A stretch of 42,850 nt of DNA from Candidatus Solibacter sp. Lineage in GTDB: Bacteria > Acidobacteriota > Terriglobia > Bryobacterales > Bryobacteraceae. A model generated the notes under the pieces. It was not told where the DNA came from. It did no database searches and saw only the letters and a program-made list of their open reading frames with translations. The stretch covers positions 1 to 42,850 of the forward strand of contig JANYAH010000107.1 in NCBI GenBank assembly GCA_025361425.1. Direction: 5' to 3'. Shown here piece by piece: positions 6,164 through 23,429 of the stretch; positions within the stretch are counted from its first letter, which is position 1, and every line of letters starts with the position of its first letter. The position numbers and the translations under genes are program-made.

Positions 6164-7336
6164 TCAGTAATTTTTCACCTGTTCCCGATATCCATCGAAA
6201 TTGCGGCGCGTTTCCGTCAGCGAATCGCCGCCGAACTTTTCGAGAAACGCCTGCGCCAGCACAATTGCCACCATGGCTTCGCCAATCACCCCCGCCGCGG
6301 GGACTACGCAGACATCGCTGCGCTCATAGGCGGCGGGCGCGGCTTCCCGCGTCTCCAGATCCACCGATTCCAGGGGCCGCCGCAGCGTCGAAATCGGCTT
6401 GAGCATGCCGCGGACCAAGATATCCTGCCCGTTGGTCATCCCGCCTTCCAATCCGCCGGCCCGATTGGCGCCGCGGGTGAAGCACTGATCCTCGCGGTGG
6501 TAATGGATTGTGTCCTGCACCAGGGAGCCCATGGTGGCCGCACCCTCAGAGGCAAACCCGACCTCGACGCCCTTCACGGCCTGGATGGAGACAATGGCCT
6601 GGGCCAACCGCCCGTCGAGCCGCGAATCCCAGGTCACGTGCGAACCGAGGCCCACGGGGACGCCGCGCGCCACCACCTCAAACACGCCGCCCACGGTATC
6701 GCCGGTACGGTATGCCAAGTCCACCACTTCTTTCATACGCAGCTCCGTGGCCGCATCCACGCAGCCCAGGAGGACCTCCTCGCGCCGGCTGAGTTCCACC
6801 AATTCGTCCCACTCAGCGGCGCGCTCCAGGCGGACCGGTCCGACGGCGATGGCGTGGCTCAACACTTGGATGCCGAATTCCCCGAGCAGGGCCTTAGCGA
6901 TTGCGCCGACGGCCACGCGCGCGGCGGTCTCCCGGGCGCTGGCGCGTTCGAGAATATAGCGGGCATCGTGGAAATTGTACTTGATGGCTCCGGCCAGGTC
7001 GGCGTGCCCGGGGCGCGGACGGGTGACGGGCTTGCGCTTATCCTGGCCGCCATCCATATCTTCCACGGGCAGGGCTTCCGTCCAGTTCTGCCAATCCTTG
7101 TTACGAATGATGATGGCCAGCGGGGAACCGATGGTGCGCGAGTGGCGCACGCCAGCCACGATCTCCGCCCGGTCGGTCTCGATCTTCATCCGTCCGCCGC
7201 GCCCGAAGCCTTGTTGGCGGCGCCAGAGTTCCCGGTTGACGGTGTCCGTTGATATAGGTATTCCGGCGGGGAGCCCGTTGATGGTAGCCACCAGGCATTC
7301 GCCGTGGGACTCTCCAGCCGTCTCAAATCGCAGCAT
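6164..7336 (-). CDS. aroC: chorismate synthase
   Basis: This is the last enzyme of the shikimate pathway. It converts EPSP to chorismate with reduced FMN. The 390-aa product begins MLRFETAGESHGE, the conserved N-terminal signature with catalytic His. It contains the family motifs GRGGRMKIE, RPGHADLAGAIKY with SARETAARVA shortly after, and GGMTNGQDI near residue 300. It is the first gene of the minus-strand run aroC-def-fmt-argJ-lipoprotein. No strong Shine-Dalgarno lies upstream of the ATG, so a short or leaderless 5' end is possible. Confidence 0.97.
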   Translation of the reverse strand: MLRFETAGESHGECLVATINGLPAGIPISTDTVNRELWRRQQGFGRGGRMKIETDRAEIVAGVRHSRTIGSPLAIIIRNKDWQNWTEALPVEDMDGGQDKRKPVTRPRPGHADLAGAIKYNFHDARYILERASARETAARVAVGAIAKALLGEFGIQVLSHAIAVGPVRLERAAEWDELVELSRREEVLLGCVDAATELRMKEVVDLAYRTGDTVGGVFEVVARGVPVGLGSHVTWDSRLDGRLAQAIVSIQAVKGVEVGFASEGAATMGSLVQDTIHYHREDQCFTRGANRAGGLEGGMTNGQDILVRGMLKPISTLRRPLESVDLETREAAPAAYERSDVCVVPAAGVIGEAMVAIVLAQAFLEKFGGDSLTETRRNFDGYREQVKNY

Positions 7337-8100: not shown

Positions 8101-8369
8101 CAGACACCGCCTTCCAATCGTCAAAGTACAACGCGCCAGCCATCGGCGAAAGCTGTCTTTAGTTATTTGGATGGCACTATCACCCCTCGGCGGAGTTCGG
8201 CAAGATTGGGCTATCTGGCTTTTTTACAGCAACTTGTGAAGTAAGGGGGGGTACTAGTAACCAGTACTCACCAGGTAATTTTCCTGCACGGTTTCCGGTG
8301 CTTGCAGCACGCAGCATGGCGATTTTGGCTAGGGGGTGACCCGCCCGCAAAAATAGTTATAAATAATAC

Positions 8370-8398
8370 TGGACAACCGGACCTGAAACTGTTAGTAT
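8370..8398 (+). promoter_or_regulatory. promoter of tandem sRNA unit 1
   Basis: TGGACA (8370-8375), 17-bp spacer, TAGTAT (8393-8398). The AT-rich stretch before it (8350-8369) could act as an UP element. Confidence 0.75.
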
Positions 8399-8404
8399 AA
8401 AGCT

Positions 8405-8495
8405 AATAAACAGCATCCTAGGGCGGTGAGTCCCCTCCCACCGCCCCCTCTGAGTGCAGGCCCCGAGTTACCCAGCTCGGGGCCTTTAACTTTTT
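8405..8495 (+). ncRNA. tandem small RNA, unit 1
   Basis: Predicted transcript of about 91 nt starting about 7 nt after the -10. It holds the conserved single-stranded phrase ACAGCATC, then hairpin 1, whose stem GGGCGGTG (8421-8428) pairs with CACCGCCC (8439-8446) around the loop AGTCCCCTCC. A conserved CTCTGAGTGC linker follows. Hairpin 2, AGGCCCCGAG (8458-8467) with CTCGGGGCCT (8476-8485), is followed by a T-rich run to 8495, a textbook intrinsic terminator. No start codon with a ribosome site lies inside. It is the first of four copies. I do not know a named family for it; a match to an existing acidobacterial RNA motif cannot be excluded. Confidence 0.82.
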
Positions 8496-8542
8496 AGAAG
8501 CGTTTCCCCCAGTCGTGCCCCAAAAATAGTTATAAATAATAC

Positions 8543-8571
8543 TGGACAAGCGGGTCTTAAACTGATAGTCT
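8543..8571 (+). promoter_or_regulatory. promoter of tandem sRNA unit 2
   Basis: TGGACA (8543-8548), 17-bp spacer, TAGTCT (8566-8571). The upstream 22 bases are the same as in unit 1. Confidence 0.72.
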
Positions 8572-8577
8572 TAGATC

Positions 8578-8667
8578 AACAGACAGCATCCTAAGCGGTG
8601 AGTCCCCTCCCACCGCTTCCTCTGAGTGCAGGCCCCGAGTTATCCAACTCGGGGCCTTTAACTTTTT
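8578..8667 (+). ncRNA. tandem small RNA, unit 2
   Basis: Same architecture as unit 1. Hairpin 1 is AAGCGGTG (8593-8600) with CACCGCTT (8611-8618); both sides changed relative to unit 1, keeping the pairs. The loop AGTCCCCTCC is identical. The terminator hairpin runs from AGGCCCCGAGT (8630-8640) to ACTCGGGGCCT (8647-8657), followed by a T-run ending at 8667. Confidence 0.82.
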
Positions 8668-8719
8668 AGAGAACACTTCCCTGCCCCCGCTGGCGGCAAA
8701 AATTAATCCAAAATAATAC

Positions 8720-8748
8720 TGGACAACCGGACCTTAAACTGTTAGTTT
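8720..8748 (+). promoter_or_regulatory. promoter of tandem sRNA unit 3
   Basis: TGGACA (8720-8725), 17-bp spacer, TAGTTT (8743-8748). The -10 is weaker than in units 1 and 4. Confidence 0.7.
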
Positions 8749-8754
8749 GGAGAC

Positions 8755-8842
8755 AACAGACAGCATCCCAGGCGGTGAGTCCCCTCCCACCGCCTTTCTG
8801 AGTGCAGGCCCCGAGTACCCAGCTCGGGGCCTTTAACTTTTT
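8755..8842 (+). ncRNA. tandem small RNA, unit 3
   Basis: Hairpin 1 is AGGCGGTG (8770-8777) with CACCGCCT (8788-8795) around the invariant loop AGTCCCCTCC. The terminator hairpin is AGGCCCCGAG (8806-8815) with CTCGGGGCCT (8823-8832), followed by a T-rich tail to 8842. The 5' phrase ACAGCATC is retained. Confidence 0.82.
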
Positions 8843-8927
8843 AGCCCTGCGTCATGGCATGCCAGTTCCTTGCGATTTCGACGGGCGCTGGCGTCAAAAA
8901 CAACTTTAAAAAGTTTAAACAAATAAC

Positions 8928-8956
8928 TGGACAAAGAGATCTGCAATTGCTATTAT
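8928..8956 (+). promoter_or_regulatory. promoter of tandem sRNA unit 4
   Basis: TGGACA (8928-8933), 17-bp spacer, TATTAT (8951-8956). This has the best -10 of the four, and its upstream and spacer sequence is the most diverged. Confidence 0.75.
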
Positions 8957-8962
8957 GAACTC

Positions 8963-9049
8963 AACACAGCATCGTAGCGGTGAGTCCCCTCCCACCGCTA
9001 CCCTCTGAGTGCAGGCCCCGAGTACCCAGCTTGGGGCCATTACTTTTTT
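8963..9049 (+). ncRNA. tandem small RNA, unit 4
   Basis: Hairpin 1 is TAGCGGTG (8975-8982) with CACCGCTA (8993-9000), again with compensating changes at the stem base and the same loop AGTCCCCTCC. The terminator hairpin GGCCCCGAG (9014-9022) pairs with CTTGGGGCC (9030-9038) through a G-U wobble, followed by TACTTTTTT. The most diverged copy, but the structure is intact. Confidence 0.8.
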
Positions 9050-9059
9050 GGCCCCCCTC

Positions 9060-9297
9060 TCAAGCAGCATCAAACATGTGGGACCTCCCGTGCGGAGTCA
9101 CCCGTGAAGCAGCCAACGCAGGCGGCACTTGCGGAACACGCAGGCGCGCGCTGCGCCCGGCGCGATTCCTTGTCGACCCACACCGCGCCCTTGGCGATGC
9201 GCACGCGGGCACGCTCCCTGACTTGGTGAGGAAGAATGGGTGGGCAGGCGAAAGCGCCTGCCGCACACTTTTCCCAGCACCGGACAGTCTGCATTGA
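9060..9297. repeat. intergenic repeat-rich stretch with palindromes
   Basis: No credible gene. The segment around GCAGGCGGCACTTGCGGAACACGCAGG resembles sequence at 33196-33240, so it belongs to a dispersed family. A perfect hairpin GGCAGGCG-AAAG-CGCCTGCC lies at 9243-9262, and a related GGGCGAAAGCGCCTGCC recurs at 9467-9483. Confidence 0.5.
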
Positions 9298-9424
9298 TTG
9301 TGGGGCGGACCCCCTGGTTCGCAGCCGACGCCCCGTCGGCTTGCTGCCGTGTGTATGAAGCTGATTTCATTGGCGAAAAGCGGGTCCGGGGGGACCCGCG
9401 CGGACCAGGGGGTCCGCCCCACAA
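9298..9424. repeat. MITE-like element with 20-bp terminal inverted repeats
   Basis: This 127-bp element has perfect ends, TTGTGGGGCGGACCCCCTGG at 9298-9317 and its reverse complement at 9405-9424. An inner palindrome CGGGTCC-GGGG-GGACCCG lies at 9381-9398. Related copies are at 22733-22837 (inside ctaA) and, lacking the right end, at 13015-13101. It encodes no transposase and looks like a non-autonomous or REP-type element. Confidence 0.8.
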
Positions 9425-9526
9425 TTTCTGCAGGATTCGCAGATTTTGCAAAAAGTATGTGGCATTGGGCGAAAGCGCCTGCCGTGGATCTTCTGCCAGC
9501 GCGAGGGGAAGCCGGTCGCGCCCCCG

Positions 9527-9880
9527 TCAACCCTTTTTGTCGACCGCCTTAATGTGGCACTTGGTGGTGCAGTTGCCCTTGCTCTGGAAAGCTTTTCCGT
9601 CAACGTGGTGGCAGGAACCGCAGGAGGTTTTCGCGGTCTCGGCCGTCTTGTGCATGGCGGCCTTCCAATTCAACGGCGCCTTGGCATCCTGCGGCCACTG
9701 TGCCGGATGGCAGGTTTTGCATTCGTTCTTCTCGCGCTTGGCGTGCGCCGCGTGATCGTACGTGACGTTGCCGTTCTTGGCAGCCAGCACGAGTTTGGTA
9801 GGCGCCTTTTTGTCCTGGGCCACCATGGACGTCAACGCGACCATGGCAAACAGAAGACAACAGGCTAGAGCATTTCGCAT
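9527..9880 (-). CDS. small periplasmic multihaem cytochrome c (c7/triheme type)
   Basis: After a signal peptide (MRNALACCLLFAMVALTSMVAQ) the protein has CKTCH, CGSCH and a spaced CTTKCH (CX3CH) haem-binding site, plus His-rich segments (VTYDHAAH, SCHHVDG) that can supply axial ligands. This matches the short c7/c3-like triheme cytochromes used for periplasmic electron transfer. I start it at the ATG at 9880 (117 aa). The longer frame to 9910 would run through a strong promoter, with TATAAT overlapping its coding sequence. The gene is single, with repeats downstream and the transglycosylase gene upstream. Confidence 0.85.
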   Translation of the reverse strand: MRNALACCLLFAMVALTSMVAQDKKAPTKLVLAAKNGNVTYDHAAHAKREKNECKTCHPAQWPQDAKAPLNWKAAMHKTAETAKTSCGSCHHVDGKAFQSKGNCTTKCHIKAVDKKG

Positions 9881-9887
9881 GACCGCC

Positions 9888-9917
9888 ATTATAAGAGGTA
9901 GACGTCGCAAATGTCAC
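9888..9917 (-). promoter_or_regulatory. promoter of the triheme cytochrome gene, probably giving a leaderless mRNA
   Basis: On the minus strand: GTGACA (9917-9912), 18-bp spacer, TATAAT (9893-9888). Only 7 nt separate the -10 from the ATG at 9880, so transcription would start at or next to the start codon. Confidence 0.55.
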
Positions 9918-12958: not shown

Positions 12959-13014
12959 GCTGACTTTATTTTAGCAGTCGCGGGTAGGGCATAGTCGGAT
13001 TACGGCGCGGGGCA

Positions 13015-13101
13015 TTGTGGGGCGGACCGCGGTCCGCAGCCGACGCCGCCGCCAGCTTGCGCCTTATGGATGATGCCGATTTCGTTGGCGAGAAGCGGGA
13101 A
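13015..13101. repeat. partial copy of the dispersed inverted-repeat element
   Basis: It starts TTGTGGGGCGGACC and continues GCAGCCGACGCC, then GATTTCGTTGGCGAGAAGCGGG, paralleling the left two-thirds of the element at 9298-9424. The right terminal repeat is absent. It abuts the 3' end of the metalloprotease gene. Confidence 0.7.
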
Positions 13102-22466: not shown

Positions 22467-23429
22467 ATGCATCATAACGATGTGGGTTCTCTCTGGTTAC
22501 GCCGCTACGCGGTGTTTGTGGCGTGCTGCACGTTCGGGCTGATGATTGCCGGCGGGCTGGTCACCAGCAACGACGCGGCCCTATCCGTGCCCGATTGGCC
22601 GCTTTCGTGGGGCCGTCTGGTGCCCACATGGGAAGGCGGGATCCGCTACGAGTTTGCGCACCGCTTGGCAGCGATGCTGGTGGGTCTGCTGACGGTCGGG
22701 CTGGCGGTGTGGATGAGGCAGGCTTCATCTGATGGTGGGCCGTACCCCCTGGTCCGCGGCCGACGCCCTCGTCGGCCTGCCGCGCTTGAAGAGCGGGTCC
22801 AGGGGGACCCGCGCGGACCAGGGGGTCCGCCCCACAGCACTCGGTTGGCATGGGCCGCGGTGGCGGTAGTGCTGGCGCAGGCCGGGCTCGGAGGGATGGC
22901 GGTGAAATATGTAACGCCTGCTTGGGCCACTATCGCGCACGCGACGCTGGGGCAACTCTTCTTCGCAATCACGGTAGCGATTTGTGTAGGGCTGTATGCC
23001 GGCTTCGAACGCCGCTGGGCCGCCCCGACCGTAATTTGTGTGGTGGCCCTCTTCGCCCAGACCATCCTGGGCGCAGGTGTCCGCTACGGAGTGATCGCGC
23101 CGGTGGCCCATATCGTGTTTGCGGTGCTCGCCACCATTCTGGTGATGTGGGCCGGCCTACCCATCCTGCTGAAGCACATGGACAATCCGCAGCTCCGCCG
23201 TCCGGCCATGCTCTTGCTATCCGTCACGTTTTCGCAGGTTTTCCTGGGCATTGGCGCGTACATGGCGCGCGTGGCTTATGCGGACGCGCCGCAGCCCATG
23301 CCGATGATGGTGTTGTTCACGGTGGCGCACGTCGCCGTGGGGTCGCTGGCGGTGGGCGCGGCGGTAGCGCTGGCCATGCTGGCGCGGCCCAATGCGTCTC
23401 GGGCACAGGGAGGGCTGGCCACCGCGTGA
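22467..23429 (+). CDS. ctaA: haem A synthase carrying an in-frame repeat insertion
   Basis: CtaA oxidises haem O to haem A for cytochrome oxidase. The 320-aa membrane protein keeps the family's functional residues: the ExxH pair in YEFAHR (Glu62, His65) and later histidines in IAHATLG, PVAHIVF and VAHVAVG. Eight hydrophobic segments are visible. Residues about 89-124 (GGPYPLVRGRRPRRP... to PPHS) are hydrophilic, Arg/Pro/Gly-rich and foreign. They are encoded by a 105-bp copy of the dispersed inverted-repeat element and sit in a loop between helices 2 and 3. The frame is preserved. The gene overlaps ctaB by one base. Confidence 0.92.
   Translation: MHHNDVGSLWLRRYAVFVACCTFGLMIAGGLVTSNDAALSVPDWPLSWGRLVPTWEGGIRYEFAHRLAAMLVGLLTVGLAVWMRQASSDGGPYPLVRGRRPRRPAALEERVQGDPRGPGGPPHSTRLAWAAVAVVLAQAGLGGMAVKYVTPAWATIAHATLGQLFFAITVAICVGLYAGFERRWAAPTVICVVALFAQTILGAGVRYGVIAPVAHIVFAVLATILVMWAGLPILLKHMDNPQLRRPAMLLLSVTFSQVFLGIGAYMARVAYADAPQPMPMMVLFTVAHVAVGSLAVGAAVALAMLARPNASRAQGGLATA
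22733..22837. repeat. copy of the dispersed inverted-repeat element inside ctaA
   Basis: 105 bp. The left end TGGTGGGCCGTACCCCCTGG is a slightly diverged form; the right end CCAGGGGGTCCGCCCCACAG matches the copy at 9405-9424 except for its last base. The length is exactly 35 codons, so the reading frame of ctaA is kept. Confidence 0.85.

Follow-up and report, generated by a model that had tools for sequence, protein, structure and literature searches.

What is encoded by four tandem units, each with the look of a complete small RNA (sRNA) gene, in a 42,850-nucleotide stretch of Candidatus Solibacter DNA (contig JANYAH010000107.1)? This whole stretch is called the window below. We consider it fairly probable that the units are four paralogous copies of one trans-acting sRNA, a class A member of the Acido-1 family with an anti-Shine-Dalgarno seed and sigma-54 ancestry.

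Anatomy and identity of the units

All four units lie on the + strand, and the sequence signals of each comprise a promoter, a 5' segment, a first hairpin (hairpin 1), a linker and a T-tailed terminator hairpin (Table 1). The -35 element TGGACA, the 17-bp spacer and the TAnTnT -10 element claimed by an initial annotation of the window were found exactly in all four, at 8370, 8543, 8720 and 8928. A promoter rule demanding 9 of 12 matches was passed by units 1 and 4 only. The conserved ACAGCATC starts at 8410, 8583, 8760 and 8966 in units 1 to 4. Alignment of the four units reproduced the compensatory changes reported for hairpin 1: the stem-base pairs are GG/CC, AA/TT, AG/CT and TA/TA in units 1 to 4, and GCGGTG/CACCGC and the loop AGTCCCCTCC are constant. 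The linker, described as common to all, is CTCTGAGTGC in 3/4 units, but unit 3 has TTCTGAGTGC. A terminator rule applied to 8200-9200 gave 5 sites, all on the + strand, where shuffles expect 1.4. One site falls in each unit, in agreement with the GC hairpin and T tail annotated there, and the fifth is at 9147. The + strand folds beat all 200 shuffles in every unit (z -5.1 to -6.0). The complement folds have z of -3.0 to -5.0, and all four + folds have lower z than their complements. The sequence evidence that the units are sRNA genes with their own promoter and terminator is strong, and it supports the proposal of a family of ~90-nt sibling sRNA genes, organized as complete + strand units with C-rich unpaired seeds as in LhrC.

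The family was said to have no known name. All four copies match Rfam RF01686 (Acido-1) at 67.3 to 78.0 bits against a gathering score of 50, and do so over model positions 1-64 of 64. Homology of the locus to Acido-1 is certain; it belongs to a described family whose existence was already known. Rfam puts all four matches on the - strand, opposite to the annotated units. Rfam includes an LhrC model, and no LhrC match was found in the window at the gathering score or in 8300-9100 up to E 1. The match to sX13 (RF02232) reaches 17.5 bits against a gathering score of 50. In the parts of Weinberg et al. (2010; PMC2864571) available to us, Acido-1 is a probable RNA of Acidobacteria that is probably not cis-regulatory, and these passages are silent on its strand. 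In the portions of the open-access literature covered, RF01686 was found only in that paper; the string 'acido-1' occurs also in PMC8100337.

Strand of transcription

To determine the transcribed strand, 56 distinct units including the window's four were compared. A first regex gave 58 matches, of which duplicates and the false matches L013:2084 and L108 were removed; a second regex took care of L026, L027 and L034. Promoters were counted on 51 units, 5 with short flanks being dropped. A sigma-70-like promoter was defined as at least 8 of 12 matches, with expectations from mononucleotide shuffles. Such a promoter lies upstream on the + strand in 45/51 units (11.6 expected) and on the - strand in 2/51 (4.1 expected). 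TDGACM-N17-TANNNT is present in 42/43 class A units whose flank is long enough. On the + strand, hairpin 2 is followed by at least 4 consecutive T in 48/56 units; on the - strand, runs of T behind hairpin 1 do not exceed 3.

A deeper set was built from the window and 88 of 272 loci (89 sources), which gave 139 matches and 123 distinct units; 4 of the 123 are omitted from its promoter counts for short flanks. In this set, 56/57 class A promoters are sigma-70-like on the + strand (13.6 expected) versus 6/53 on the - strand. Adjacent unit pairs, 158 to 1603 bases apart, share the same strand in 40/40 cases. We are highly confident that the functional RNA corresponds to the + strand.

RNA structure and covariation

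The covariation in hairpin 1 had been taken as strong evidence for selection on structure. Four related copies by themselves are weak evidence for this; the claim stands on an alignment of 55 units, which omits L117:3972 because of an insertion behind hairpin 2. There, 8/18 pairs change on both sides, which 0/500 shuffles reach, and the covariation score is 0.191 versus 0.104 in shuffles (0/500 as high). The count of further pair types was not above shuffles (209/500). The actual structure pairs in 94.6 percent of cells, and slid structures in 44 to 51 percent.

The hairpin 1 loop is predicted to be open in both classes, with a mean P(unpaired) of 0.94 in class A (59 units) and 0.97 in class B (54 units). 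The class B linker GCCCCUC has a predicted mean of 0.80 (60 units). One tandem unit, L017:1670-1735 of genome G489, lacks hairpin 1 and keeps a sigma-70 promoter, the 5' segment, the linker and the terminator. It is a natural seed deletion.

Two classes with different promoters

The classes are defined by the loop of hairpin 1. Among the 56 units, 44 have TCCCCT, 2 have ACCCCT and 10 have another loop. In the 123-unit set, class A, to which the window's units belong, has UCCCCU or ACCCCU. Class B has [GA]CCCAG in 54/61 units, the linker GCCCCUC or a near form in 60/61, and in 43/61 GTC-N6-GAC, which is able to form an additional 5' hairpin. By eye, class B 5' ends such as that of L213 read AAGTCGTCATCGACTT or similar, with a possible 5' hairpin bearing a UCAU loop that was not seen in class A. 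The class regex wrongly assigned to B two units of class A type: one that lacks hairpin 1, which is among the 62 units counted below, and one truncated at a contig end. With these two corrected by eye, 0/65 genomes with fetched units hold both classes.

A sigma-54 reading of the sigma-70-like class A promoters was rejected (0/57). By eye, these promoters have TG before the -10 element and A-tracts upstream, and the 17-base spacer is itself conserved (like RGATCTKAAAYTGC), for example at window 8376-8392. This conserved spacer region may contain an operator.

Class B carries a sigma-54 -24/-12 element in 37/62 units (0.25 expected), when at least 9 of 12 matches are required with GG and GC fixed; 25/62 fall short. 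The sigma-70 rule is passed by 15/62 (11.6 expected), some of them clearly. Genome G421 has paralogues of both promoter types, three sigma-70-type (one weak) and one sigma-54-type. A motif search in the upstream regions of 42 units with a sigma-54 score of at least 8 identified the palindrome TGSGNNAWWTNNCSCA, which in 41/42 starts 58 to 109 bases ahead of the -24 element. Its motif score is 323, and shuffles gave 42 to 67. Refitting the procedure to 53 class A upstream stretches gave 173, so relatedness alone raises motif scores. When the palindrome was held out by genus, 36/42 units in 18 genera reached 10 bits. At 10 bits the full model matched 9/194 control flanks, 0/57 class A units, 0/19 other class B units and 0/210 shuffles. 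The palindrome, for example upstream of L250, L216 and L240, is a likely site of a sigma-54 enhancer-binding protein. rpoN was found in 50/50 chosen genomes. By these sequence features, a -24/-12 element, a predicted enhancer upstream and rpoN in the genome, many class B units would be under sigma-54 control.

Origin of the class A promoters

An rpoN protein tree of 30 chosen genomes was used to order the promoter types. It is rooted at the midpoint only, with 5/27 inner branches starred and 12 open. Class A forms one group (13 rows, support 88/87) nested inside class B, so sigma-54 first and sigma-70 later is likely, not proven. Its sister at 100/100 is G451, which has a class B unit of sigma-70 type among its fetched copies. 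The tree suggests that the family underwent a switch from sigma-54 to sigma-70 in the class A lineage. Originally, control of the family probably lay with sigma-54 together with an enhancer-binding protein; the window's lineage would then have swapped to sigma-70 promoters, and its loop would have changed from CCCAG to CCCCUCC.

We give an even chance to a rewiring in one lineage, in which the control by sigma-54 and an enhancer-binding protein that reads TGSGNNAWWTNNCSCA and the CCCAG seed of a core Bryobacteraceae sRNA were replaced and its signal and targets changed, with the scaffold kept. Under this equally balanced reading the enhancer and the -24/-12 element were lost, and sigma-70 promoters with an extended -10 and a conserved spacer, tandem copies and the anti-Shine-Dalgarno CCCCUCC loop were gained. 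Variation between sigma-54 and sigma-70 among species has a precedent in GlmY/GlmZ, according to the parts of PMC4098024 and PMC7073468 available.

Proposed function

Each of the window's units would be transcribed rightward from its own sigma-70-type promoter to give an RNA of ~90 nt that ends at the intrinsic terminator. The hairpin 1 stem would present the C-rich loop AGUCCCCUCC, predicted to be unpaired. This loop contains CCUCC, the core of the anti-Shine-Dalgarno sequence, and would most likely block the translation of several mRNAs by pairing with their G-rich ribosome-binding sites. Hfq, present in 22/22 chosen genomes, probably assists pairing. Having more than one copy probably increases the dose or allows individual copies to respond to different signals.

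We lean only slightly toward Shine-Dalgarno pairing as the mechanism, and several results count against it. A target scan found GGGAGGGGA close before ATG 3 times in the window's genome, and a reversed control pattern also 3 times. Just one of these GGGAGGGGA sites is followed by an open frame longer than 20 codons. This sole candidate, which we take to be a hydrogenase/NADH-dehydrogenase-type small subunit, was rejected, its ribosome-binding site not being conserved in relatives beyond GGGAGG. Class B loops (CCCAG) are not anti-Shine-Dalgarno, and the class A linker is predicted to be only half unpaired (0.45).

The negative target scan would also suit an RNA that binds a protein and not mRNAs, that is, a multi-copy decoy with conserved stem-loops as its sites. 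CrcZ is a decoy of this kind for Hfq/Crc. Tandem copies with constant loops would be in keeping with a titrating RNA, and sigma-54-driven GlmY is such a decoy, for RapZ, in the available parts of PMC4098024 and PMC7073468. However, the loops differ by class (CCCAG, CCCCUCC) on a similar scaffold, which changed mRNA partners explain more easily. No protein-binding motif was recognised, though no search aimed at one was made. We regard a protein decoy as rather unlikely.

It is very improbable that Rfam has the strand right, with an RNA that begins with the GC hairpin and carries GGAGGGG in the hairpin 1 loop. Such an RNA could be a decoy for a protein of the type of CsrA, which binds GGA motifs. 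RF01686 is modelled on the - strand, all four copies are over its cut-off there, and the - folds are stable. The observations that weigh against the + strand are a lower raw folding energy on the - strand in 3/4 units and the wobble pairs. Hairpin 1 pair 26/35 is A.C on the + strand in 46/56 rows, and G.U if read on the - strand. In the 123-unit set it is A.C in 61/123, and the remaining units pair (A-U 40, G-C 16, U-A 4, C-G 1). Over all pairs the + strand has 58 G.U versus 82 A.C, and therefore the raw wobble count favors the - strand. The other hairpin 1 pairs show 41 G.U versus 2 A.C on the + strand, and hairpin 2 shows 17 G.U versus 19 A.C, 17 A.C being at the variable loop-closing pair 76/89. 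Without pair 26/35 and the ill-aligned pair 76/89 the count favors the + strand, 55 to 4, in an alignment that was fitted to the + model and so leans to +. We interpret pair 26/35 as belonging to the near-constant class A loop of 10 bases, with its letters kept for a reason other than pairing. Its A.C state on the + strand may explain why Rfam chose the opposite strand. A promoter on the - strand in 2/51 units and the missing T tail speak against an RNA from that strand, as do the sigma-70 promoters, sigma-54 promoters and enhancer, which are all on the + side. Class B loops read CUGGG on the - strand, without GGA. The Rfam strand as given was rejected because promoters and T tails are on the opposite strand, with the A.C pair 26/35 retained as counter-evidence.

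An inactive repeat spreading with its promoter and terminator would fit tandem arrays, a multi-copy palindromic repeat directly downstream and a unit that has lost hairpin 1, but it is scarcely credible given the single array of four in the window's genome, the compensatory stem changes and the conservation of promoter, loop and terminator across genera.

Distribution of the family

The initial annotation proposed to check Rfam and acidobacterial genomes with a covariance model. Rfam gave Acido-1, and a + strand model gave matches in 97/257 genomes of the order (47/84 genera). Five of the 97 (G484, G497, G502, G525 and G612) have E over 1e-5, are no stronger than the chance-like matches at class level and may be chance. 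At class level there are matches in 51/399 genomes, of which 36 belong to the window's family and 15 do not. The 15 (E 2.6e-5 to 6.7e-4, under 29 bits) were taken as chance terminator-like matches and not inspected singly. The Rfam model matches 40/101 genomes of the family, 21 over cut-off. Over the phylum it matches 2/396 genomes, one being the window's own, in a listing with only three genomes of the window's family; the one match below cut-off there, L003, was likewise taken as chance terminator-like. In the window's genome the + strand model found only 4 copies, all in one array, and no further convincing copy (next match E 0.04).

Loci were fetched from the best matches only, with 60 stretches chosen from the matches listed. 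A loose contig pattern brought in at least 120 stretches, most unrelated by organism name, and only those with a regex-found unit were used. Named contigs with units are assigned to Bryobacterales, Bryobacteraceae, Candidatus Solibacter, Candidatus Sulfopaludibacter, Terriglobia and Acidobacteria, the last being the host phylum of Acido-1. These names point to Bryobacteraceae as the carriers. More than one unit is present in 32/83 unit-bearing loci. Since several arrays reach the end of a contig, copy numbers are minimum values.

Genomic surroundings

Frames within 1-5 kb around the units were clustered over the 83 loci, and one representative per cluster was searched in Pfam. The most widespread neighbor occurs in 15/83 loci at most, a figure that underestimates sharing because most loci are short. 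We take this largest cluster to be shadow frames. The absence of a general neighbor fits a stand-alone gene acting in trans. A chorismate synthase cluster lies upstream on the opposite strand in 10/83 loci, and 10/83 have an upstream frame that matched nothing in Pfam. Other neighbors are glnE (divergent, 6), adenylate kinase (upstream, 6), lptD (downstream, 6) and lactate permease (upstream, 5).

Class B arrays L215, L216, L217, L218 and L219 are divergent to glnE-cluster frames, beside sigma-54 promoters, the Pfam identification being made on L219 only. glnE, divergent in six class B loci, was rejected as a partner, since other loci have other neighbors. As glnE is a nitrogen gene, a link of class B to nitrogen control is possible.

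A palindromic repeat resembling repetitive extragenic palindromes or miniature inverted-repeat transposable elements occupies window 9285-9432, directly downstream of the array, and recurs at 13014-13099 and 22719-22836. It has at least 73 matches (arms counted apart) in ~40 places in the genome, with 40/128 candidates scored. A small multihaem cytochrome gene (Cytochrome_C7, Pfam) lies near the array at window 9527-9910 on the - strand.

Table 1. Positions of the array's parts and of other features in the window
Feature	Position	Strand	Details
Unit 1 promoter	8370-8398	+	TGGACA, 17-bp spacer, TAGTAT; TG precedes -10
Unit 1 sRNA gene (model span)	8405-8495	+	linker and T-rich tail included
Unit 1 ACAGCATC	8410-8417		
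Unit 1 hairpin 1	8421-8446		
Unit 1 loop AGTCCCCTCC	8429-8438		
Unit 1 terminator hairpin	8458-8485		
Unit 2 promoter	8543-8571	+	TGGACA, 17-bp spacer, TAGTCT; under 9-of-12 rule
Unit 2 sRNA gene	8578-8667	+	hairpin 1 8593-8618, loop 8601-8610, terminator hairpin 8630-8657, T tail
Unit 3 promoter	8720-8748	+	TGGACA, 17-bp spacer, TAGTTT; under 9-of-12 rule
Unit 3 sRNA gene	8755-8842	+	hairpin 1 8770-8795, loop 8778-8787, terminator hairpin 8806-8832, T tail
Unit 4 promoter	8928-8956	+	TGGACA, 17-bp spacer, TATTAT; TG precedes -10
Unit 4 sRNA gene	8961-9049	+	hairpin 1 8975-9000, loop 8983-8992, terminator hairpin 9014-9038, T tail
Acido-1 RF01686 matches	8422-8487, 8594-8659, 8771-8834, 8976-9041	-	Rfam model
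Chorismate synthase gene	6164-7336	-	neighbor outside array; Pfam match on homologue L271:1186-2397 only

Significance and comparison with known systems

Acidobacteria are abundant in many soils. No acidobacterial sRNA study beyond the 2010 motif paper of Weinberg et al. was found in the portions of the open-access literature searched. As far as these searches show, the following are new: the strand assignment, the make-up of a unit including its promoter and terminator, the arrangement in tandem, the division into two classes, and an enhancer-linked sigma-54 promoter that class A lacks. If our reading is right, the database family needs a strand reversal, which would change annotations and probes derived from Acido-1, and the family acquires an anatomy that can be tested and a candidate for its control signal. 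It would also offer a natural series in which the change of sigma factor and seed of an sRNA can be followed on a similar scaffold.

The closest system is Acido-1 itself, from the same phylum, whose whole model is matched by all four copies. Compared with the Rfam entry, the RNA described here lies, on our evidence, on the other strand, with ~17 nt of conserved 5' sequence, a T tail and a promoter added; compared with the available account in PMC2864571, tandem arrays and two classes are added. LhrC1-5 of Listeria are likewise multi-copy siblings and pair with ribosome-binding sites through three CU-rich motifs, as described in the part of PMC4132741 available. By sequence signals the units share with LhrC several copies with their own promoter and terminator and a C-rich seed that is predicted to be unpaired. 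They differ in phylum, in having no Rfam LhrC match and in their probable sigma-54 ancestry. Alpha-r14 / NfeR1 of Sinorhizobium, from what is available of PMC10746234, resembles them in its constant anti-Shine-Dalgarno motif in unpaired loops, its variable stems and its link to nitrogen control; it differs in having three hairpins, each with CCUCCUCCC, and in belonging to alphaproteobacteria. We know of no tandem arrays of GlmY/GlmZ, and neither appears among the Rfam matches of the window. The likeness of GlmY/GlmZ to class B lies in their control by QseF, an enhancer-binding response regulator; the differences are that at glmY the two promoters overlap and that GlmY acts as a decoy for RapZ (PMC4098024 and PMC7073468, in the parts available).
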